From: Cetobacterium somerae
GTDB taxonomy: Bacteria > Fusobacteriota > Fusobacteriia > Fusobacteriales > Fusobacteriaceae
DNA length: 64,000 nt
Assembly (NCBI RefSeq): GCF_022430525.1
Contig: NZ_CP092522.1
Coordinates: 1 to 64,000 of the forward strand
Reading direction: 5' to 3'
A program made the position numbers and the translations under genes. Within the stretch, counting starts at the first letter, position 1, and each line of letters begins with the position of its first letter. Positions 10,768-46,212 of this stretch are shown here, piece by piece. The notes beneath the pieces were generated by a model. It saw only the letters and a list, made by a program, of their open reading frames with translations, was not told the DNA's origin and made no database searches.

Positions 10768-10889
10768 TCTTTTTTATAATAAAAGTCAATAATTGAAAGC
10801 TATTAAAAAAAATGTTTCGAAAAATAAAAAAATGTTTTCCTTCAATCTTTGAATAAAATATGATAGAATTCTTTTAGAAAAATTATAAA

Positions 10890-10954
10890 ACTTATATATA
10901 TTTGGGATATGGCCAAAAGTTTCTACACCAAACCGTAAATTTGGTACTATAAGT
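10890..10954 (+). ncRNA. Purine (guanine-type) riboswitch aptamer
   Basis: P1 is ACTTATA (10890-10896) with TATAAGT (10948-10954). P2 is TTTGG/CCAAA around GATATGG, P3 is ACCAAA/TTTGGT around CCGTAAA, and the core junction contains GTTTCTAC. The two seven-base loops match the kissing-loop consensus. The specificity base in the 3' junction (ACTAT) is C, which in this family means guanine/hypoxanthine rather than adenine. A -10-like TATGATAGAAT lies about 25 bases upstream. A terminator follows at 10968-11000. Confidence 0.93.
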
Positions 10955-10967
10955 AAAAGTTAACTTA

Positions 10968-11000
10968 AAACAGTAAGCTTTTGCTTGCTGTTTATTTTTT
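10968..11000 (+). terminator. Expression-platform terminator of the guanine riboswitch
   Basis: CAGTAAGC (10971-10978) and GCTTGCTG (10983-10990) form a stem flanked by AAA/TTT and followed by a T-run ending at 11001. It lies between the aptamer and the SD of the amidohydrolase gene, consistent with ligand-induced termination. Confidence 0.88.
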
Positions 11001-17267: not shown

Positions 17268-17296
17268 AAATAATCAAAAAATAATTTACTTTAATA

Positions 17297-17447
17297 ACCG
17301 TTTGAGCTTTAGCTTCATAGGGCGATGAAATTGCATTATTCTATGCCTTGAATTCGACATAGACTGTTAACCAACTCATAGTGTCTCCACTATTTCGCGG
17401 CAGCAACCCTTATCCCTATGGTAGCCTCACCTACCGATTTTTCTATC
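17297..17447 (-). ncRNA. M-box (ykoK-type) magnesium riboswitch
   Basis: The minus strand shows the conserved blocks GGTAGGTGAGGCTACC, GTTGCTGCCG, GGAGACACTATG, GTTAACAG, ATGTCGA and, at the 3' end, CCTATGAAGCTAAAGCTC in the right order and spacing for the M-box. Mg2+ binding favours the downstream terminator and so represses the Mg2+ transporter gene. Transcription should begin near 17448. Confidence 0.94.
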
Positions 17448-34137: not shown

Positions 34138-35970
34138 TTATTTATTTTTTTCACTATTTATTCTCAAAACAACTAATCTAACCATTTCTATGATATCTTC
34201 TTCTAAAAGATTTTCTAAATTTTTTTTCAACAAAATCTCTTTTCCTACTTCTAACCTTAATAGCATCTCTTGATCAGAATCCATATTCAATAATCCAGAA
34301 TAAAAAGTTATTTTTTCATTTATTGATTTATAAACTTCTGTTAAATTTAATTTTTTTTTATCCTCATTTAATGGGATTATTTCTTCTATATCAACTTCAA
34401 TTTTTTTATCAAAATATCTTTTTTCTTCTAAGTAATCACATATTATGGTAGTCTTTCCGGCGTTAAACGCAATTTTCTGAATTTTTGTATCTTGTCCACA
34501 TTTTTTTACATAATATTCATATGCCTTTTTTTCTATTTCTAACTTCTCTTCCTCTAATAACTTATTAAATTCCTCTAAAGATTTTCTTGTTATTTTATTT
34601 TTAACTTGATCTTCTTCAACTTCTAATTTATTTATATTAAGTAATTCAAATTCTTCTTTTTTTTCAACTAAAACTACTTTTTCTTCATCTTTAGTCCAAT
34701 TATTTTCTAAAGCTTTAATAAAATACGCTCTTACTTTATCAACTTTATTCTTTTTCATATACACTGCAACTTTTTGAACTTTTTCTAGTCCATAATTTTC
34801 AATAGCATCTTTTATTGTTTTAGGCATTGTTTTTAAACTTCTTGCTTTTATAGGCATTAATTTTAAAACTTCATCTATCATTTCTGGTGTCACAACTATA
34901 AATTCTTTCAATTTTCCAGTATTATCATCCTGTAAATCTTTATTTTCCATATGACTAACTAATAACTGACTTTGACTTAAATGTCTAAATTCGTTTAAAT
35001 CATCAAAAAATCTTTGTTGTTTATCTTGAACAGTAAAATCATAAAAAAAGACCTCGACCTCTGCACTTTCCCAAGTTCCTTCTTTTTCTAAAATAAAATT
35101 TTTTATTAAATCTTTATCTTTTAATTCTTGAAAACTTTTAATTAAAGTTTTTACGGTTCTTCCTATATTACTTCTATCATATTTTAATGGAATTCTTTTA
35201 ATTAAATACATAACATCTATTTTTAAATAAACTTCATTAAATCTAAGTTTTTCAATTAACATATATATTGTTCTAGCAGTACTTGATTCTATATCTAATA
35301 AAACTGCAGCATCATAAACTAAATATCCTTTTGCTAGTATATTTTTATAAAAAAAATCAGATATTTTTATTTGATAAATTTCTTTAATTCTTTTATCGTT
35401 TATTTGAGCTTTAATTTCAGCATTTTCTTTTCTTTCTAAACTAACAATATCTAATTCAAAAATAGATCTTGTTATTTCTTCCTTTAAAAGTGATTTTAGT
35501 TCATTAAAATACATCGTATTTTTAAAACTATAAAAAGTATTTGCTATTCTTAGTAAACTTTTTTTTATAAGTTCATTTGCTCTATTTGTATTTAATCCTA
35601 ATTCTTTTTTTAATTCACTTAATGTAACCCAAAATTTTTGGGGCATTCCTTTATCTTTCATTATCTTCATCAATACTATAAATACTTTCTCTTCCATTTC
35701 GCCTGGAATATGATACCCTGATGCAGGAGTAACAGTTATATACGTATCTCTATTATTATTAAAATAATATTTAACTATTTGATTTGTTTTTCTTTTAGTA
35801 TTTTTACTAAATATAGGATACTGAATAATATTCATATCCATTCTAATTAATGCCCTATTTTTTATAAAACTCTCATCTAAGGTTATATTCTCTTCAACTA
35901 TTTCTGTTTCTGGTGTATCTATAATCTCTTGAAAATCTAAATTGTTGCTTTTCTTTTTCACTATTTTCAT
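34138..35970 (-). CDS. rep: Plasmid-type replication initiator (iteron-binding winged-helix Rep)
   Basis: 610 aa. Residues about 40-330 resemble RepA/Rep_3-type initiators with two winged-helix modules: YHIPGEMEEKVFIVLMKIMK near 86, WVTLSELKKELGLNTNRANE near 118, and DVMYLIKRIPLKYDRSNIGR near 250. Residues about 355-430 (NYGLEKVQKVAVYMKKNKVD ... KALENNWTKDEEK) resemble the C-terminal helical segment of other plasmid initiators, and the rest is charged and may form coiled coil. It would bind the iterons upstream, melt the adjacent AT-rich DNA and load the helicase. GTTGGAGATGAG precedes the ATG. Its promoter abuts the first iteron, so it is probably autoregulated. Exact Pfam family is not certain. 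Confidence 0.85.
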   Translation of the reverse strand: MKIVKKKSNNLDFQEIIDTPETEIVEENITLDESFIKNRALIRMDMNIIQYPIFSKNTKRKTNQIVKYYFNNNRDTYITVTPASGYHIPGEMEEKVFIVLMKIMKDKGMPQKFWVTLSELKKELGLNTNRANELIKKSLLRIANTFYSFKNTMYFNELKSLLKEEITRSIFELDIVSLERKENAEIKAQINDKRIKEIYQIKISDFFYKNILAKGYLVYDAAVLLDIESSTARTIYMLIEKLRFNEVYLKIDVMYLIKRIPLKYDRSNIGRTVKTLIKSFQELKDKDLIKNFILEKEGTWESAEVEVFFYDFTVQDKQQRFFDDLNEFRHLSQSQLLVSHMENKDLQDDNTGKLKEFIVVTPEMIDEVLKLMPIKARSLKTMPKTIKDAIENYGLEKVQKVAVYMKKNKVDKVRAYFIKALENNWTKDEEKVVLVEKKEEFELLNINKLEVEEDQVKNKITRKSLEEFNKLLEEEKLEIEKKAYEYYVKKCGQDTKIQKIAFNAGKTTIICDYLEEKRYFDKKIEVDIEEIIPLNEDKKKLNLTEVYKSINEKITFYSGLLNMDSDQEMLLRLEVGKEILLKKNLENLLEEDIIEMVRLVVLRINSEKNK

Positions 35971-36048
35971 AACTCATCTCCAACAATTTTTTCGTCATTA
36001 CATGGGTATATCTATATTAATTTTAGTTTTTTTTCATTGTTTTATTAA

Positions 36049-36077
36049 ATTATACCTAAAAATTTTATATTTTTCAA
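36049..36077 (-). promoter_or_regulatory. Promoter of the initiator gene
   Basis: TTGAAA (36077-36072), a 17-bp spacer and TATAAT (36054-36049) on the minus strand. The first iteron begins 6 bases upstream of the -35, so Rep bound there could repress or modulate its own gene. Confidence 0.82.
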
Positions 36078-36083
36078 GCTAAA

Positions 36084-36274
36084 TACTCCCACTTAATGAA
36101 GAAATTTTGCTTTTTCCTTAATTTATTCCCACTTAATGAAGATAAAAAATAAACAAATATTAGATACTCCCATCTAATGAGGATAGGTACTCCCACCTAA
36201 TGAGGAAAGTAGTCCCACTTAATGAGGATAGATACTCCCATCTAATGAGGAAAACTACTCCCATTAAATGAGGA
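36084..36274 (+). repeat. Replication origin: seven 19-bp iterons
   Basis: Direct repeats of consensus TACTCCCAYYTAATGARGA start at 36084, 36124, 36165, 36188, 36210, 36233 and 36256. The last five are spaced 22-23 bp (about two helical turns); the first two are at 40-41 bp intervals. TCCCA and AATGA are constant in every copy; the two copies nearest rep have GAAGA instead of GAGGA. Position next to a Rep gene and an AT-rich stretch identifies a theta-type origin. Confidence 0.93.
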
Positions 36275-36347
36275 TTTATATAATCGCCTTAAATCCTATA
36301 TAAATCAAGGGATATTTGCATTTTTTTTATAATATTTTTTGTACACA

Positions 36348-36377
36348 ACAATATATAACAATATATAACAATATATA
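36348..36377 (+). repeat. AT-rich tandem repeat beside the iterons (possible unwinding region)
   Basis: Three perfect tandem copies of the 10-mer ACAATATATA (36348-36357, 36358-36367, 36368-36377) followed by degenerate versions to about 36392. AT-rich repeats next to iterons are commonly the DNA-unwinding element. No exact DnaA box was found by eye. Confidence 0.65.
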
Positions 36378-36410
36378 AACAACTATAACAATGCTTAATT
36401 AAAAAAATAT

Positions 36411-36472
36411 CAACGCATTTTTAATATAAATTAAATTTATGCGTTGACTTTTAGTTAATTATGTTGTATTCT
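36411..36472 (+). promoter_or_regulatory. Promoter with inverted repeat in front of the partition genes
   Basis: TTGACT (36444-36449), a 17-bp spacer and TATTCT (36467-36472) form the promoter. The 8-bp arms CAACGCAT (36411-36418) and ATGCGTTG (36439-36446) flank an AT-rich centre and overlap the -35, as an operator would. Autoregulation by ParA or its N-terminal domain is a reasonable inference. Confidence 0.7.
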
Positions 36473-36493
36473 TATAATATAAAAATAAAAAAA

Positions 36494-36551
36494 AGAGGTA
36501 ATCAAAACGATATACCCCTACTGGCAATAGAAGTATATCATTTTATCCTCT
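36494..36551. promoter_or_regulatory. Long hairpin in the leader of the 44-aa/parA operon
   Basis: AGAGG...CGATATAC (36494-36514) pairs with GTATATCA...CCTCT (36533-36551) around the loop CCCCTACTGGCAATAGAA. Read on the minus strand the hairpin is followed by eight T residues, so it would terminate transcription running toward the origin. On the plus strand it is a structured 5' leader before the SD of the 44-aa gene. It might insulate the origin or be half of an antisense-RNA pair. Confidence 0.65.
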
Positions 36552-36571
36552 AAAAATCAAGGAGGCTTAAT

Positions 36572-36706
36572 ATGAGATTAACTGTATTAAAAAATGGAAT
36601 TGAAGTAACTCTTTATTTTAAAAAAAATTGTAAACAAGAAAAAGTGAAATATATTGTAAATTCAGAAGAAGAAGCCTATAAAATAGCTCAACTTCTTTTA
36701 TATTAA
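36572..36706 (+). CDS. Small protein, 44 aa, first gene of the partition operon
   Basis: ATG at 36572 behind AAGGAGG; stop TAA 36704-36706. The sequence (MRLTVLKNGIEVTLYFKKNC ... EEEAYKIAQLLLY) looks like a small beta-sheet followed by a helix, basic in the middle. It lies between the origin and parA, 46 bases before the latter. No family is recognised; small plasmid genes in this position are often copy-number or partition accessory proteins. Confidence 0.72.
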   Translation: MRLTVLKNGIEVTLYFKKNCKQEKVKYIVNSEEEAYKIAQLLLY

Positions 36707-36707
36707 T

Positions 36708-36737
36708 AAATATCTTCGGTCATGACCGAAGATATTT
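36708..36737. repeat. Perfect 30-bp palindrome, copy 2 (candidate parS / terminator)
   Basis: The 26-bp core at 36710-36735 is identical to that at 33541-33566. Here it is followed only by TTTT and then directly by the SD and start of parA, so its value as a terminator is small. A perfect palindrome immediately upstream of a parA gene is where type I partition systems commonly keep a centromere. Confidence 0.85.
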
Positions 36738-36752
36738 TCCTAAGGAGTAAAA

Positions 36753-37826
36753 ATGGTTTTCGAAAAAAAAATAAATATAATATTTAATAAAAAAAATAAA
36801 ATATCAACAGCTTATCTGAATATTCCAATGAAAGGAATAAAAATAATGAACGAACCTCAAATATTAAAATGTTTTTATAATAAAAAAAATAATGAAATAA
36901 TTTTGAAAAAAGACAATGAAGGACAACCACTTATTATACAAGCAAATGGAAATAGTAAACTTTATAGATTTACTCTAGATAAAGAAATAATTGAAAAAAC
37001 AGGATACAAAAAAAATCAACTAGTTAAAATAGATATTACTACAGATCAAATAAAAATAAACTTTAATCAGGAGGAAAAGATGTCTAAAATAATATCAATT
37101 ATTAATTTTAAAGGTGGAGTAGGAAAAACAACAACAACTCATTGCATTGGAGCAGGTTTAACATTAGAAAATAAAAAAGTTTTATTAATTGATACAGATC
37201 CTCAGGCTAGTTTAACATTTACAGCTTTATCTGAAACTCCTAAATTAACAATAAAAGACATTTTGGTAGATCAAAAAAATATTAATAATGTTATTCTTGA
37301 AACAGACAACTTTGATTTAATTCCATCTAATTTAATTTTAAACTTAGCAGAAAGACAATTGACTTCTAAATTTGGAACAGAAAAATTATTAAAAAAAGCT
37401 TTAAATAAACTAGAAAAAACATATGATTATATAATAATTGATTGCCCTCCTAGTATGAATCTATTTACTATAAATGCTTTATATGCATCAGATTATATAT
37501 TAATTCCTTGTGAAACAGAACTTTTAGCATTAGATGGATTAAATCTTTTAATTCAAACATTAGAACAGACAGAAGAAGAATTGGATGTAAAAATAAAAAA
37601 CACTTTAGTTTTACCAACTAAGTTAGATAAAAGAAAAAAAGTAAGTAAAGAGATTTTTGAACATTTAAAAGAAAACTTTAAAACAACAAACGCTACAATA
37701 AGAACTTGTTCAAAATTAAATTTATTAGGACTTGATAAAAATTCAATTTATCAAATAGATTCAACATGTACAGCAGCAACAGATTATAAAAATTTAGTGG
37801 GGGAAATTATAAAATGGGATTGTTAG
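36753..37826 (+). CDS. parA: ParA-family partition ATPase with N-terminal AbrB-like extension and internal start
   Basis: 357 aa. Residues 110-357 are a standard ParA: deviant Walker A in NFKGGVGKTTTT near residue 117-128, DTDPQASLT near 147, and YIIIDCPPSMNL near 220. Residues 1-109 are an added region with two stretches resembling swapped-hairpin AbrB/MazE DNA-binding folds (NKISTAYLNIP near 20 and RFTLDKEIIEKTGYKKNQLV near 70). A consensus SD (AGGAGG) sits in frame 6 bases before the ATG at 37080, so a 248-aa ParA without the extension is probably made as well. AAGGAG precedes the long start. It overlaps the downstream gene by 13 bases. Confidence 0.9.
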   Translation: MVFEKKINIIFNKKNKISTAYLNIPMKGIKIMNEPQILKCFYNKKNNEIILKKDNEGQPLIIQANGNSKLYRFTLDKEIIEKTGYKKNQLVKIDITTDQIKINFNQEEKMSKIISIINFKGGVGKTTTTHCIGAGLTLENKKVLLIDTDPQASLTFTALSETPKLTIKDILVDQKNINNVILETDNFDLIPSNLILNLAERQLTSKFGTEKLLKKALNKLEKTYDYIIIDCPPSMNLFTINALYASDYILIPCETELLALDGLNLLIQTLEQTEEELDVKIKNTLVLPTKLDKRKKVSKEIFEHLKENFKTTNATIRTCSKLNLLGLDKNSIYQIDSTCTAATDYKNLVGEIIKWDC

Positions 37827-38431
37827 CAAATTATAAAAAAAGTGAAGTTGTAATAAAAAAAGAAAAATTTGATTCAAATTTTGACTATACAGGTTTTAAT
37901 ATTAATGACAAAGAATATTTGATTGAACTTGAAAAAAAAGCAATATATACTGGAAATTTATTAAAAGAAAACGTAAAAGAACTTGGTGATGTTTTTTTAG
38001 AAGCACATAAAATATTTTCAAATAATAAAAATGGAATGTTTGGGAAATGGTATGAAAATTTAGGATTTAAAAAAGATTTTGTATATCTTTGTTTAGATAG
38101 AAAACAATTATCTATACAATATGATTCAACTACTATTTATAAACTTCCTGATAGAGTTATAAAAGATTTAAAAAAGATTGAAAAAGAAAATGAAGAAATT
38201 ATAGTTGAAATTTTAAACTCTGAAAATCCAAAAGAAAAATTAAAAGAAATAAAACAATCTTTAAATCAAAATAGAATAAATCAAAATAAAATAAATCAAA
38301 ATACAAAAAAAGAAAAGATAAAAGAAAAATTATGTATTTTTCTAAAAATTATAAATAATAATGAATTCAGTGATGAAAAATTAATTAAAATAGATAATAT
38401 TTTATTAAAATTAGAAGATGAAATATTGTAA
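37814..38431 (+). CDS. ParB-like partition partner, non-canonical
   Basis: 205 aa, basic. It overlaps the end of parA by 13 bases (start ATG at 37814 behind GGGGGA), so the two are coupled. Residues about 45-105 (AIYTGNLLKENVKELGDVFL and NGMFGKWYENLGFKKDFVYL) resemble the short helical DNA-binding proteins that accompany plasmid ParA (DUF3102-like). A lysine/asparagine-rich linker with repeated INQNK units (about 145-160) joins a C-terminal helix. There is no canonical ParB CTPase motif. It probably binds the centromere; this is inferred from gene position. Confidence 0.75.
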   Translation: MGLLANYKKSEVVIKKEKFDSNFDYTGFNINDKEYLIELEKKAIYTGNLLKENVKELGDVFLEAHKIFSNNKNGMFGKWYENLGFKKDFVYLCLDRKQLSIQYDSTTIYKLPDRVIKDLKKIEKENEEIIVEILNSENPKEKLKEIKQSLNQNRINQNKINQNTKKEKIKEKLCIFLKIINNNEFSDEKLIKIDNILLKLEDEIL

Positions 38432-38460: not shown

Positions 38461-38481
38461 TATAATATTGTGAATAGTGCT

Positions 38482-38540
38482 AAGGAGGAAATTTTATGAA
38501 CTGATTTAAATGAAATCTAAAAACTTTTAGGTTAAAAGTT
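38482..38540 (+). promoter_or_regulatory. Leader A: start-stop mini-ORF plus hairpin before the ECF/TudS operon
   Basis: AAGGAGG (38482-38488) and ATG (38496-38498) form a perfect translation start, but the frame is only Met-Asn-stop (38496-38504). A hairpin AACTTTT-AGG-TTAAAAGTT (38522-38540) follows. The same hairpin sequence, again after a two-codon ORF, precedes the rhodanese gene at 44853-44870. The remaining leader up to 38622 is AT-rich with no further feature recognised. Confidence 0.6.
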
Positions 38541-38622
38541 ATAAAAAAGTTCCTAAATAAATGGAAATTACTATAGAAAATATATTAAAATTAGTTTGAG
38601 TGAAAACTAAGAAAGAGGAAGA

Positions 38623-39177
38623 ATGAAAAAAAATACTTTATCAATAACAATATCAGCATTAGGAATAGGACTTAATATTATACTTGCAACATTAGCTAAA
38701 ACTTTTAATATACCTTTTTTATTTTTAGATACAATAGGAACTATACTTTCTGGAGCTTTATTAGGACCATTTTTTGGAGGTATTACAGGTTTAATTACAA
38801 ACGTAATGACAGCCATGGTAAACAATCCTATAGAACTCCCATTTGCTATAGTAAATATGATGATAGGAATAGTTGTTGGAATTATTTCAAAAAAATTTGG
38901 ATTTACAATAAAAATAGCAGTTTTAACAGGAATTTTATTAGCAATTCTAGCTCCTTTAATTGGGACACCAATAGCTGTGTCATTATTTGGTGGATTAGCA
39001 GGAGGTTCAATGGATATATTAACAGGATGGCTAGTAAAAAGTGGACAAAAAATATTTACAGCAGCTTTTATTCCTAGAATAATGTCAAATTTAATTGATA
39101 AAATAGCTTCATGTGTGGTAGTGGCAATGATAATAAATAAACTTCCTAATAACTTATTAAACAAGATAAGAGGGTAG
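38623..39177 (+). CDS. ECF transporter S component (CD3073-like)
   Basis: 184-aa inner-membrane protein with about five to six hydrophobic segments (starting MKKNTLSITISALGIGLNII; central GPFFGGITGLITNVMTAM). Topology and glycine-rich helices fit the substrate-binding S subunit of energy-coupling-factor transporters. The ATPase and T subunits follow in the same operon, with a TudS-related protein between, the same partnership as the CD3073/CD3072 pair described by name in Clostridioides. The substrate is not established; the desulfidase suggests a sulfur-containing pyrimidine or similar. AAAGAGGAAGA precedes the ATG. Confidence 0.85.
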   Translation: MKKNTLSITISALGIGLNIILATLAKTFNIPFLFLDTIGTILSGALLGPFFGGITGLITNVMTAMVNNPIELPFAIVNMMIGIVVGIISKKFGFTIKIAVLTGILLAILAPLIGTPIAVSLFGGLAGGSMDILTGWLVKSGQKIFTAAFIPRIMSNLIDKIASCVVVAMIINKLPNNLLNKIRG

Positions 39178-39179
39178 AT

Positions 39180-39704
39180 ATGGAAAGAGGAAAAAAAATT
39201 ATTATTGTCTCTCACTGTATTTTAAATCAAAATTGTGTAGTAAAGCCTTATGCAAAAAAACAGGATAAATTTTTAAAGTTTATAAAAAATTTTGTTTTAA
39301 ATAATTATGGAATTGTTCAACTTCCATGTCCAGAATTATTTATTTTAGGTTTGAAAAGATGGGGTCATGTAAAAGATCAGTTGGAATATCCTAATTTTAA
39401 AGATGAATGTAAAGTATTACTATATCCTATTATAAATCAAATAGAGATGTATATTAATTGTGATTATAAAATAGATGGGATATACGGAATACAAGGTAGT
39501 CCAAGTTGTGGTGTCAATAAAACATGTAGAGGTAATTGGGAAGGTGAAGCAAGTTGTTATAAAAATTTAGATGATATTTTAAAAAGAGTTCATTTGGTTT
39601 CTGAAAAAGGAATTTTTATGGAAATTTTACAAGAGCTTTTAAAAGAAAAAAATATAGAAATAAATTTTTATGACATTGATGATTGGAGTGAAGAGATTGA
39701 TTAA
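39180..39704 (+). CDS. TudS-related putative desulfidase (CD3072-like)
   Basis: 174 aa, 2 bases after the S-component gene. Three cysteine sites that could hold an iron-sulfur cluster are visible: SHCILNQN near residue 13, LPCPEL near 57 and SPSCGVNKTC near 112-121. TudS enzymes use a [4Fe-4S] cluster to remove sulfur from thiouracil, and the CD3072 branch is a relative of unknown substrate. Placement inside an ECF uptake operon suggests that the imported compound is desulfurated. GAGGGTAG precedes the ATG. It overlaps the next gene by 8 bases. Confidence 0.8.
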   Translation: MERGKKIIIVSHCILNQNCVVKPYAKKQDKFLKFIKNFVLNNYGIVQLPCPELFILGLKRWGHVKDQLEYPNFKDECKVLLYPIINQIEMYINCDYKIDGIYGIQGSPSCGVNKTCRGNWEGEASCYKNLDDILKRVHLVSEKGIFMEILQELLKEKNIEINFYDIDDWSEEID

Positions 39705-40509
39705 ATTAGAATCAATAAAATTTTCTTATAATCAAGAAATTATATTCCAAGATTTTTCTATAAATTTTAAAAAAGGAAAATTTTATACTTTATTAGGGAA
39801 AAATGGCTCTGGAAAAAGTACTTTAATAAAATTAATTCTAGGCATAGAAAAAGTAAGTCAAGGAAATATATATATAGATAATTTAAATATAAGAGAAAGT
39901 CTTTTTCAATGTAGAAAAAATATAGGAATAGTATTTCAAAATCCTGATGAACAACTTGTAACTGATATTGTAGAGGAAGAAATTGCTTTTTCAATGGAAA
40001 ATTATGGATATAGTTCAGATTTCATGAAAAGAAAAGTAGAAAAATTATTGAAAGAAATAGATTTTTTCGAAAAAAAGAATGAAACGATATCTAAATTATC
40101 AGGAGGAGAAAAACAAAGAGTTTGTATAGCTTCTTCTTTAGTTTTAGACCCTAAAATTTTAATACTAGATGAAGGAACGGCGATGCTCGACCCAGAAAAT
40201 AGAAAAATAATACTAGATATATTAAGAAATTTAAGTAATAAGGGAATGACAGTAATTTTAGTAACTCATCATTTAAATGAAATAGAATTTTGTGATGAAG
40301 TTATTTATCTTGAAAAAAACAAAATCAATTTTAACGGGCCTAAAAAGCTTTTTATGAGCTTTCTTGTAAAAATTGAGATAGACCAAGGGATAGAATTACC
40401 TCCTATGTTTAAAGTCGCTAGAAGCATTTATTTAAGAACTAAAAAGGATGTTTCAGAAGATATTTTTAATTTAAATAAAATGGGGGAGCATTTATGGAAA
40501 TCTCTTTAA
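39697..40509 (+). CDS. ecfA1: ECF transporter ATPase subunit A1
   Basis: 270 aa from a TTG at 39697 behind GGAGTG; a GTG and an ATG slightly upstream are in frame but would add residues before the usual IKLESIKFSY start. Walker A is LLGKNGSGKSTL near residue 33, the signature LSGGEKQRV near 128 and Walker B LILDEGTAMLDPE near 150. The Q-loop FQNPDEQLVTD is typical of EcfA. Together with EcfA2 it drives the shared EcfT scaffold and S subunit. Confidence 0.92.
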   Translation: MIKLESIKFSYNQEIIFQDFSINFKKGKFYTLLGKNGSGKSTLIKLILGIEKVSQGNIYIDNLNIRESLFQCRKNIGIVFQNPDEQLVTDIVEEEIAFSMENYGYSSDFMKRKVEKLLKEIDFFEKKNETISKLSGGEKQRVCIASSLVLDPKILILDEGTAMLDPENRKIILDILRNLSNKGMTVILVTHHLNEIEFCDEVIYLEKNKINFNGPKKLFMSFLVKIEIDQGIELPPMFKVARSIYLRTKKDVSEDIFNLNKMGEHLWKSL

Positions 40510-41294
40510 AAAAAGTTAACTCAGGATATGATGAGATAATTTTGGAAAATGTCAATATAGAAATAGAAGAATGTTCATGGACATTTATAATAGGAAAAAC
40601 AGGTAGTGGAAAATCAACCCTTTTACAAACTATAGGATTTTTATTGAATAATATCCAAGGAGAAATCTTATGGAAAGGAATTAATTTATCTAATTCTCAA
40701 AACTTAAAAAAATTTAGAGAAGCTACGGGATATATGTTTCAATATACTGAGAAACAATTTTTTAATAATACAATAAAAGAAGAGATTGAGTATATTTTAA
40801 TTAAGAAAAAAGTTTCTAGAGAAGAAATTGATAGAAGTGTAAATGAAGTTCTAAAACTTTTGAAATTATCTAATGAAATTTTAAATAAATCTCCATATGA
40901 AATAAGTGGAGGTCAAAAAAGGTTAGTTGCATTAGCATCAATTTTAGTCACTTCTCCTAAATTATTATTATTAGATGAACCAACTGCGGGATTAGATTTA
41001 GAAAATAAAAAGTTATTTTTTGATGTCTTAAAACAATTAAAAAATAAAGGAGTTACAATTATACAAATATCTCATTTATTTGAGGATGTTTTAGAATATG
41101 GAGATAAAGTTTTTTTATTAGAAAATAAAAAAATTATAAATGAAGGAGTTCCCTTAAAAGTTTTAGAGAAATCTGACTTAGAATTTATAGAATTTTGCAA
41201 AATTATTAATAAATGTGGAATAGAAACAGAAAATATAAAAAACATAGATGAATTATTAGAGAGGATTGGGATAGATGCTAAAGAAAGATTTTGA
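40494..41294 (+). CDS. ecfA2: ECF transporter ATPase subunit A2
   Basis: 266 aa. Walker A IIGKTGSGKSTLLQ near residue 32, Q-loop FQYTEKQFFNN near 80, signature ISGGQKRLVALA near 135 and Walker B LLLDEPTAGLD near 158. It overlaps ecfA1 by 16 bases (SD GGGGGAG) and ecfT by 20 bases, the tight coupling expected for fixed stoichiometry. Confidence 0.92.
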   Translation: MEISLKKVNSGYDEIILENVNIEIEECSWTFIIGKTGSGKSTLLQTIGFLLNNIQGEILWKGINLSNSQNLKKFREATGYMFQYTEKQFFNNTIKEEIEYILIKKKVSREEIDRSVNEVLKLLKLSNEILNKSPYEISGGQKRLVALASILVTSPKLLLLDEPTAGLDLENKKLFFDVLKQLKNKGVTIIQISHLFEDVLEYGDKVFLLENKKIINEGVPLKVLEKSDLEFIEFCKIINKCGIETENIKNIDELLERIGIDAKERF

Positions 41295-41991
41295 CCCTCG
41301 AATAGTATTTTATACAACTATAGGTTATATTATAGCAATTGGTTTTGCAAATAAATATTATCAGATAATTATAATTTTACCATTTATATTTTATCAAATG
41401 AAATTATTTTCAGTTGACTTAAACAAATTAAAAAAAATATTCAAGTATTCAATAGGACTTTTACTATCAATGATATTTGTAAATTTACTTTTAATGAATA
41501 AAAATATAGAATATGTATTTCTTTCTACTTTTAGACTTTTAACAATTATTTTCTTAGTTACCTCTATGGTTTCTAAAATGGAGATTAGAGAGATTGGATT
41601 TGTAATAGAGAAGATGTTATCACCTTTAAAAATATTTAAAGTTCCAGTTGACTCAATAGGAGTTATAACAGCCTTGGCATTTAAATTTATTCCAATGTTA
41701 GAAGAAGAAAGCAAAAGAATAATAATAGCTCAAAAAGCAAGAGGCATTGATTATAAATTGATGAATTTGAAAGAAAAAATTAGCAATATTTTAACACTAT
41801 TTTTTCCAGTAGTTATTTGTGGAATACAAAATGCAGTAAATTTAGCAATATCTATGGAAGTTAGAGGATATGGAAACGGAATTAAAAGAACTAGATTAAA
41901 AGATTATAAATTAGAAAAAAATGATTATTTTTATCTTTTTTTTAGTTTTATGATTTCTATTTTATATGTTGTATTTTGTTTAAGTATTTAA
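41275..41991 (+). CDS. ecfT: ECF transporter transmembrane subunit EcfT
   Basis: 238-aa membrane protein with about five to six segments. The paired coupling-helix motifs containing Ala-Arg-Gly appear as AQKARGIDY near residue 153 and MEVRGYGNG near 196. EcfT connects the ATPases to exchangeable S subunits; since the operon contains its own S gene, this set may be dedicated. A terminator follows. Confidence 0.9.
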   Translation: MLKKDFDPRIVFYTTIGYIIAIGFANKYYQIIIILPFIFYQMKLFSVDLNKLKKIFKYSIGLLLSMIFVNLLLMNKNIEYVFLSTFRLLTIIFLVTSMVSKMEIREIGFVIEKMLSPLKIFKVPVDSIGVITALAFKFIPMLEEESKRIIIAQKARGIDYKLMNLKEKISNILTLFFPVVICGIQNAVNLAISMEVRGYGNGIKRTRLKDYKLEKNDYFYLFFSFMISILYVVFCLSI

Positions 41992-44813: not shown

Positions 44814-44870
44814 GTGAGGTGATTGCTTTGAAATGAGTTAACTGAGGATGGGACTTTTAGGTTAAAAGTT
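44814..44870 (+). promoter_or_regulatory. Leader B: start-stop mini-ORF plus hairpin before the rhodanese gene
   Basis: GAGGTGA (44816-44822) is followed by two overlapping two-codon frames, TTG-AAA-TGA (44828) and ATG-AGT-TAA (44833). The hairpin ACTTTT-AGGTTA-AAAGT (44853-44870) is identical to that in leader A at 38522-38540. A TATAAT-rich promoter region lies about 25-30 bases upstream (near 44791-44801). Confidence 0.6.
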
Positions 44871-44925
44871 AAAAATTTATTTGGCAAAGTGTTGTCTTAA
44901 AATATAAGTTAGGGAGAAGTACAAA

Positions 44926-46212
44926 ATGAAAAAAATATTATTTTTACTAATAATTTTATCAACAATTTTATTAGGAAAGGATATCAAAACTAATGAATTA
45001 CTAAAAAATCTTAATAATCCTGAATGGATTATAGTTGATACAAGAGATAGTAATGAATATAATGGATGGAATTTATCTAATCTAAAAATAAATGGACATA
45101 TAAAAGGAGCTACTGATTTGTCTGCTAATTGGTTAAAGGCAAAATATTTAAGCTCTAGTAATAAAGAGATATTAAAGCAAAGAGTTTTAGAAAAAGGAAT
45201 TATACCAGAAAAAAATATTGTTTTATATGGAACATCTACAGAAATGAAAGATGTAGAGAAATACTTAAAAGAAAATGGTGTAAAAAATATTTATTTTTAT
45301 GATTTTGAAAAAAATAAAGATTATGATAGATTACCTTTTGAAACATACGAGAATTATGAAATTTTAGTTCCAGCAACTTGGGTAAAAAATGCTATGGACA
45401 AAAATGAGATTAAGATTTTTGAAGTATCTTGGGGAAGTATAAAGGATGCTGCTGTATATTTAGCAGGGCATATTCCAGGAGCTCCGCATATTAATACAGA
45501 TAGTATTGAACCACCACCAAAGTGGATGTTAAATACAGATGAAAATTTAATTAAATTTGCTGAAGAGATGGGAATTTCTAAAAATGATAGAGTTGTTCTT
45601 TATGGTGAAAATGTTATGGCATCATATAGATTAGCTATAATTTTAAAATATCTTGGAGTAAAAGATGTAAGAGTTTTAAATGGTGGTTTAGATGCTTGGA
45701 AAGATATGGGATACAAAACAGAAATGGGAATTGTTAAACCAACCCCAATTAAAGATTTTGGATCTAAAACTCCTTTAAATAAAAGTTTAATAGTAAATGA
45801 AAATGGAGCAAAGCAAGTTTTAAAAGATAATAAAAATTCAAAACTTTTAGTAGATATTAGATCATACAATGAAAGAATTGGAAAAGAATCAGGATATTCA
45901 TATATGGATAGAAAAGGTAGAATTACAGGATCTGTATGGGGAAAATCTGGAACTAAATCAACAACATTGGAAGACTATAGAAATATTGATAACACAATGA
46001 GAAACGGTTATGAAATTATCTCTATGTGGTCTGGATTAGGAATTAATACAAATAAAGAGTTAACATTTTTCTGTGGATCAGGATGGAGAGCAGCAGAAGT
46101 ATTATTTTATTCTCAAGTGATGGGATTAAAAAATAATGCTCTTTATTCCAATGGTTGGATGGAATGGAGTGAAGATAGTTCAAATCCAATTGAAACAGGG
46201 ATAGAGAACTAA
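44926..46212 (+). CDS. Exported triple-rhodanese sulfurtransferase
   Basis: 428 aa with a signal peptide (MKKILFLLIILSTILLGKD). Three rhodanese repeats are visible: about 22-145 (IIVDTRDSNEY, then VLYGTSTE), about 150-268 (LAGHIPGAPHIN, then VVLYGENVMASYR) and about 290-425 (LLVDIRSYNER, then FFCGSGWRAAE). Only the third has the catalytic loop cysteine; the first two loops lack Cys and are probably structural or binding domains. The protein would move sulfane sulfur in the periplasm. It is monocistronic with terminator, and its leader shares a motif with the TudS/ECF operon. Confidence 0.88.
   Translation: MKKILFLLIILSTILLGKDIKTNELLKNLNNPEWIIVDTRDSNEYNGWNLSNLKINGHIKGATDLSANWLKAKYLSSSNKEILKQRVLEKGIIPEKNIVLYGTSTEMKDVEKYLKENGVKNIYFYDFEKNKDYDRLPFETYENYEILVPATWVKNAMDKNEIKIFEVSWGSIKDAAVYLAGHIPGAPHINTDSIEPPPKWMLNTDENLIKFAEEMGISKNDRVVLYGENVMASYRLAIILKYLGVKDVRVLNGGLDAWKDMGYKTEMGIVKPTPIKDFGSKTPLNKSLIVNENGAKQVLKDNKNSKLLVDIRSYNERIGKESGYSYMDRKGRITGSVWGKSGTKSTTLEDYRNIDNTMRNGYEIISMWSGLGINTNKELTFFCGSGWRAAEVLFYSQVMGLKNNALYSNGWMEWSEDSSNPIETGIEN

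Follow-up and report, generated by a model that had tools for sequence, protein, structure and literature searches.

Two leaders in the 64,000-nucleotide stretch of Cetobacterium somerae DNA analysed here (the window) each carry a mini-ORF with two in-frame UGA codons followed by a SECIS-like hairpin. We regard it as probable that these are selenium-responsive leaders, which would sense Sec-tRNA through tandem selenocysteine (Sec) codons and control the downstream genes. A more specific reading is also favoured, with less assurance: a Sec-codon attenuator, whose paired UGA-Sec codons, together with a SECIS of their own, would read the Sec-tRNA level and turn a regulon for selenium acquisition on or off. 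The sequence-only reading of this DNA had described a start-stop mini-ORF and hairpin shared by two sulfur-related units. The shared leader was found where that reading had placed it (38482-38540 for the first copy); the element is not a two-codon ORF with an unrelated hairpin, and the stop of the Met-Asn-stop is one of two UGAs placed as Sec codons with a SECIS hairpin. The second in-frame TGA (38511 and 44843), the set distance to the GGT loop and a second downstream hairpin had been overlooked.

Leader architecture and distribution

Copy A spans positions 38482-38610 and copy B positions 44816-44896 of the window, both on the forward strand, as read from the window sequence. They share a common layout. 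A strong Shine-Dalgarno (SD) sequence precedes a start codon, which one Lys or Asn codon separates from the first UGA; the second UGA comes after two further codons, and the hairpin behind it has a GGU triloop. In copy A, the SD AAGGAGG (38482-38488) precedes a mini-ORF that begins with ATG (38496), AAC and TGA. The first UGA (38502-38504) lies 25 nt and the second (38511-38513) 16 nt upstream of the GGU loop (38530-38532). Without Sec the mini-ORF ends at 38504; with both UGAs read as Sec it would extend from 38496 to 38576 and encode MNUFKUNLKTFRLKVIKKFLNKWKLL-stop. The SECIS-like hairpin A, AACTTTTA-GGT-TAAAAGTT (38522-38540), has an 8-bp stem and is a near-perfect palindrome, and it is followed by a second hairpin, TTAGTTT-GAGTGA-AAACTAA (38591-38610), with the loop RAGUGN. 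A putative -10 element, TATAAT, was read at 38461-38466, and its assignment is tentative because the consensus scanner did not return it.

Copy B shows the SD GAGGTGA (44816-44822) and a mini-ORF that begins with TTG (44828), AAA and TGA. Its first UGA (44834-44836) is located 23 nt and the second (44843-44845) 14 nt upstream of the GGU loop. The mini-ORF ends at 44836 without Sec, and its Sec-read version (44828-44860) would encode MKUVNUGWDF-stop, closing at a TAG inside the hairpin. The SECIS-like hairpin B (44852-44870) has an 8-bp stem and a GGU triloop and differs from hairpin A by one change; the second hairpin, GGCA-AAGTGT-TGTC, is found at 44883-44896.

A geometric scan of both window strands (SD, short ORF, TGA, hairpin of at least 6 bp, GG-N triloop) returned copies A and B only. 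Many copies across the genome had been named beforehand as evidence against the shared leader. A 15-base core has just two exact matches in the entire 2.97 Mb genome and none with the pattern reversed, and a dispersed repeat was therefore ruled out. Searches with Rfam 15 matched no family at leader A or leader B.

Covariance search, reading of loci and tabulation gathered 19 leaders from 12 genomes of Cetobacterium and allied Fusobacteriaceae, of which those of one genus are not independent. In all 19, an SD and a start codon are followed, usually after one K/N/R/T codon, by two UGAs that stand one or two codons apart, and then by a GGN-triloop hairpin. The distance from the last UGA to the hairpin loop is exactly 16 nt in 13 leaders and 14 nt in the other six, and the base pairs of the hairpin stem covary. 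A degenerate pattern of this layout gave 15 matches in 98 Fusobacteriota genomes, against none in the reversed control.

Conservation upstream of orthologous genes, which the sequence-only reading had also expected, is present: the leader precedes the ECF-S orthologues of five of eight close relatives. The three orthologous ECF operons without it belong to genomes (G008, G011 and G023) that nevertheless possess selB. The idea that leader loss tracks selB loss within the genus was rejected, as the leader-less G008 and G011 keep selB. The window is part of a 128 kb contig; the C. somerae plasmid p4 shows the same gene order, with both leaders and an ECF-S protein 98% identical. This leader form is restricted to Cetobacterium and two allied genera; outside them, no leader was found before the ECF/TudS or rhodanese genes of Acetoanaerobium, Peptoclostridium and Ilyobacter. 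A scan of the genome collection gave 19 stretches, of which those in Cetobacterium and Fusobacteriaceae are real, and isolated single matches in other phyla look like chance; the Veillonellaceae match was scanned for the leader and none was detected.

Evidence that the UGAs are probably selenocysteine codons

All in-frame stops across the 19 leaders are UGA (38 of 38), a codon that terminates four of the 54 genes in this window (7%). Bacterial SECIS elements of selenoprotein genes such as fdhF, selD and grdB likewise consist of a UGA followed at a short fixed distance by a GG-N-loop hairpin, and those of the local SelD and GrdB are laid out almost identically to the leader hairpins. SelD shows, in 14 of 14 genomes examined, this one included, a single in-frame TGA with a GGA triloop 17 nt further on and a 6-bp stem, which is one pair shorter in the relative G036. 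In two relatives, the GrdB element has a stem of 7 bp and, 18 nt after the UGA, a GGA or GGU triloop; a search with the PF07355 profile found no GrdB in this genome. The leaders differ from these SECIS elements in having an ORF of few codons, two UGAs and a position upstream of non-selenoprotein genes (rhodanese, ECF).

The genome encodes selB, selD and tRNA-Sec, detected above curated cut-offs, and a 461-aa ORF between selD and selB was taken as SelA by its position and a reading of its sequence. A published bSECIS model allows an apical loop of 3-9 nt and an upper stem of 4-16 bp, with G at the first two loop positions, 16-37 nt from UGA to loop, a minimum free energy of -7.5 kcal/mol or lower, and a genome with SelA, SelB, SelC and SelD (PMC13188914). 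The GGU triloop and 8-bp stem of both copies lie within the loop and stem limits, the GG is retained in all leaders, and the machinery is present, with SelA putative. Both UGAs of copy A (25 and 16 nt) and the first of copy B (23 nt) lie within the spacing range, and the second of copy B (14 nt) is 2 nt under it. The hairpin regions alone fold at -4.3 to -4.4 kcal/mol, which is weaker than -7.5. In these genomes the threshold has no discriminating power, because several of their SelD SECIS windows are likewise weaker than -7.5 kcal/mol. When copy A was folded in isolation, a competing, non-conserved hairpin was favoured over the SECIS-like one. Decoding of the leader UGAs as Sec is strongly supported by these comparisons of sequence, and we infer that Sec is actually inserted at them.

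Downstream genes and their link to selenium

Profile searches identified the gene families of the two units that the leaders had been said to precede. Behind copy A are found an ECF transporter S component of the CD3073 family (38623-39177; NF045596, 224 bits, cut-off 180) and a TudS-related putative desulfidase of the CD3072 family (39180-39704; NF045597, 188.5 bits, cut-off 130). They are followed by two ECF ATPases (39670-40509 and 40494-41294) and a T component (41275-41991), likewise annotated in plasmid p4. Behind copy B is an exported triple-rhodanese protein (44926-46212), with three PF00581 stretches and 36-37% identity to E. coli YnjE. All these genes are on the forward strand. Although the genes behind copy A belong over cut-off to the NF045596/NF045597 pair, the leader is not part of these families, and the Acetoanaerobium copy lacks it.

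The operons that follow the leader are diverse. Besides the ECF-S/TudS and YnjE-like rhodanese operons, the leader is found before a double-cubane reductase (NF040772) and its activase in G004 and, by resemblance, in G020, before an ABC solute-binding operon in G025, and before a lipoprotein-like gene and the SAO locus (saoT with a UGA, saoE, saoC, saoX, saoB) in G036. Since it is placed ahead of several unrelated operons, the leader would be a shared control device. In G036, the SAO locus that the Sec-codon leader precedes (L074, G036:C19, from 1386 onward on the reverse strand) has its saoT in-frame UGA in the context MKKILVEFIDVCA-U-CNKY; roughly 21 nt past this UGA is a hairpin with a GUG loop.

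Several associations tie the ECF/TudS genes to selenium. In Enterococcus gilvus, the TudS-like (CD3072) and ECF-S (CD3073) genes share an operon with selA, in the order selA-TudS-ECF-S. Among 395 Lactobacillales genomes, selD is present in 12 of 12 carriers of CD3073 above cut-off and in 90 overall (Fisher p 1e-8, in a test that treats genomes without regard to phylogeny). SelA is directly upstream in five of these 12 carriers (two scored, three read from sequence), an acyl-CoA dehydratase activase is upstream in two (one scored), and a YedF-like gene is downstream in one (a fragment scored, under the curated cut-off). At the Lactobacillales loci L153 and L156, an acyl-CoA dehydratase activase is immediately 5' of TudS and the CD3073 ECF-S, which ties the reductase to the transporter systems. 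Clustering of selenium genes with those for an activase and a 2-hydroxyglutaryl-CoA dehydratase had already been observed in Slackia (PMC5322559). Of the common sulfur-linked signal suggested earlier, a shared signal is plausible, but the associated genes indicate selenium and not sulfur in general.

Proposed control, alternatives and output

We propose that a ribosome would begin the mini-ORF, reach a UGA after one codon and meet the second UGA two codons later, with the GGU-loop hairpin acting as a SECIS that recruits SelB with Sec-tRNA. With ample selenium, the UGAs would be read as selenocysteine and the ribosome would enter and melt the hairpin; with scarce selenium, pausing and termination at the first UGA would leave it folded. 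The level of Sec-tRNA(Sec) measured in this way would set downstream expression, by analogy with the trp leader and charged tRNA(Trp). In E. coli, UGA recoding is slow and its efficiency follows selenium supply (PMC4513850). The downstream genes would form a small regulon that acquires or mobilises selenium compounds, with the ECF/TudS genes and the YnjE-like rhodanese as members and, in relatives, the double-cubane reductase, the SAO locus and ABC transporters. Regulation by the leader is likewise inferred, and its direction is less certain: expression under selenium shortage is slightly preferred, because the genes resemble scavenging systems, over the opposite direction, such as protection from selenium excess.

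The leaders resemble the trp, his and other amino-acid attenuators in their short translated ORF, their tandem codons and their genes linked to what is sensed, and at the sequence level an SD and start codon are found in 19 of 19 leaders, with two UGAs in each. They differ in that the sensed codon, UGA-Sec, requires SelB and a SECIS, and in that the window copies show no conserved terminator or antiterminator.

It is unlikely, in our view, that the hairpin controls the mRNA as a SelB-binding site without true peptide decoding, the mini-ORF merely bringing ribosomes close. The SECIS geometry of the leader hairpins would suit such a role, and there is a precedent in the SECIS-like element ahead of E. 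coli selAB, for which control without peptide decoding was reportedly described by Thanbichler and Boeck in 2002. Like the hairpins described here, that element is of SECIS type and lies in a 5' leader ahead of a selenium gene, but it is said to have no UGA mini-ORF and to act on the selenocysteine-synthesis genes themselves. All 19 leaders retain an SD, a start codon and a pair of in-frame UGAs with constant spacing, none of which would be needed by a hairpin that only binds protein.

There is even less reason to expect that the peptide is the product, a micro-selenoprotein that might, for example, carry selenium or a metal for the associated systems. Its start, M-K-U-x-[NK]-U, is conserved, and the UxxU motif is known from selenoproteins (PMC13188914). 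The only recurrent part of the peptide is however M-K-U-x-N-U: nothing is retained after six residues, predicted lengths range between 9 and 52 residues, some leaders have U-x-U, and the mini-ORF invariably precedes another operon. The nucleotides of the hairpin are conserved although the reading frame differs between leaders; those with 16 nt read the hairpin as FRLK or LRLR and most of those with 14 nt hit a TAG inside it. This argues that the RNA and not the peptide is selected, and a conserved peptide past the second UGA was rejected, as frames and lengths vary. Least probable, and by our estimate very improbable, is a plain start-stop leader or DNA operator for a sulfur signal, with the UGAs as ordinary stops and the palindrome as a protein-binding DNA site, which the near-perfect palindrome and the sulfur enzymes TudS and rhodanese would favour, but which is at odds with the use of UGA in every stop against its 7% background, the constant distance to a GGN triloop that genuine SECIS elements also show, and the selenium association of the ECF/TudS genes.

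For the selenium-responsive leader, the conserved RAGUG hairpin is likely the effector of the output step. Of 13 representative leaders, 12 have an AGUG-loop hairpin between SECIS and gene, where shuffles predict 0.68. Its stems are wholly different among leaders, yet pair; because the windows were selected for pairing, the comparison with shuffles is the more reliable control. In G008, G011 and G023, whose ECF operons have no SECIS leader, the upstream sequence that was read shows no such hairpin, which suggests that both elements are one device. A T-box-like mode, in which the RAGUG loop would pair with tRNA-Sec, was rejected, as no CACUU is exposed in the tRNA sequences. The fold of copy B includes a long-range pairing of the mini-ORF start with the second hairpin, which survives in other B leaders through G-U changes only and is impossible in A. 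No terminator was found in copies A or B, nor did they reveal any switch shared among the leaders, whether by termination or by sequestering of the SD. In the relatives G020 (L080) and G036 (L074), a terminator-like hairpin, CCACTC...GAGGGG with a T-run, was seen by eye downstream of the second hairpin and ahead of the gene; the CACU in its 5' arm is kept despite a mismatch and complements the AGUG loop. A hairpin resembling the RAGUG one, CTTCC-AAGTGT-GGAAG, also occurs about 50 nt 3' of the UGA in the SelD coding sequence of this genome (L130) and 13 relatives, where it employs the rare Val codon GTG; G025 and G036 retain the stem and not the AGUG.

Leader peptides sense standard amino acids, and we know of no described example of a leader that senses Sec codons. 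Our literature search, limited to open-licence papers, found none, in agreement with the earlier statement that no such element was described. If the proposal is true, this would to our knowledge be a novel kind of leader, one that detects the 21st amino acid with a recoding signal that it carries itself, and it would give a direct read-out of cellular Sec-tRNA. Regulation by such a leader would also point to candidate selenium-uptake genes; a review states that a transport system specific for selenium and of high affinity is not yet known from any prokaryote (PMC13188914). Furthermore, "start-stop" ORFs deserve a check for SECIS before they are labelled as two-codon ORFs.

The window also contains a purine riboswitch (10872-10969, forward strand) and an M-box magnesium riboswitch (17290-17445, reverse strand), both above the Rfam gathering score. 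Upstream of copy A, positions 34138-38431 hold a ParA-like gene and a large reverse-strand ORF, a candidate replication initiator, which is consistent with a plasmid or second replicon. The same block is carried by C. somerae p4, where it is interrupted by a group II intron.
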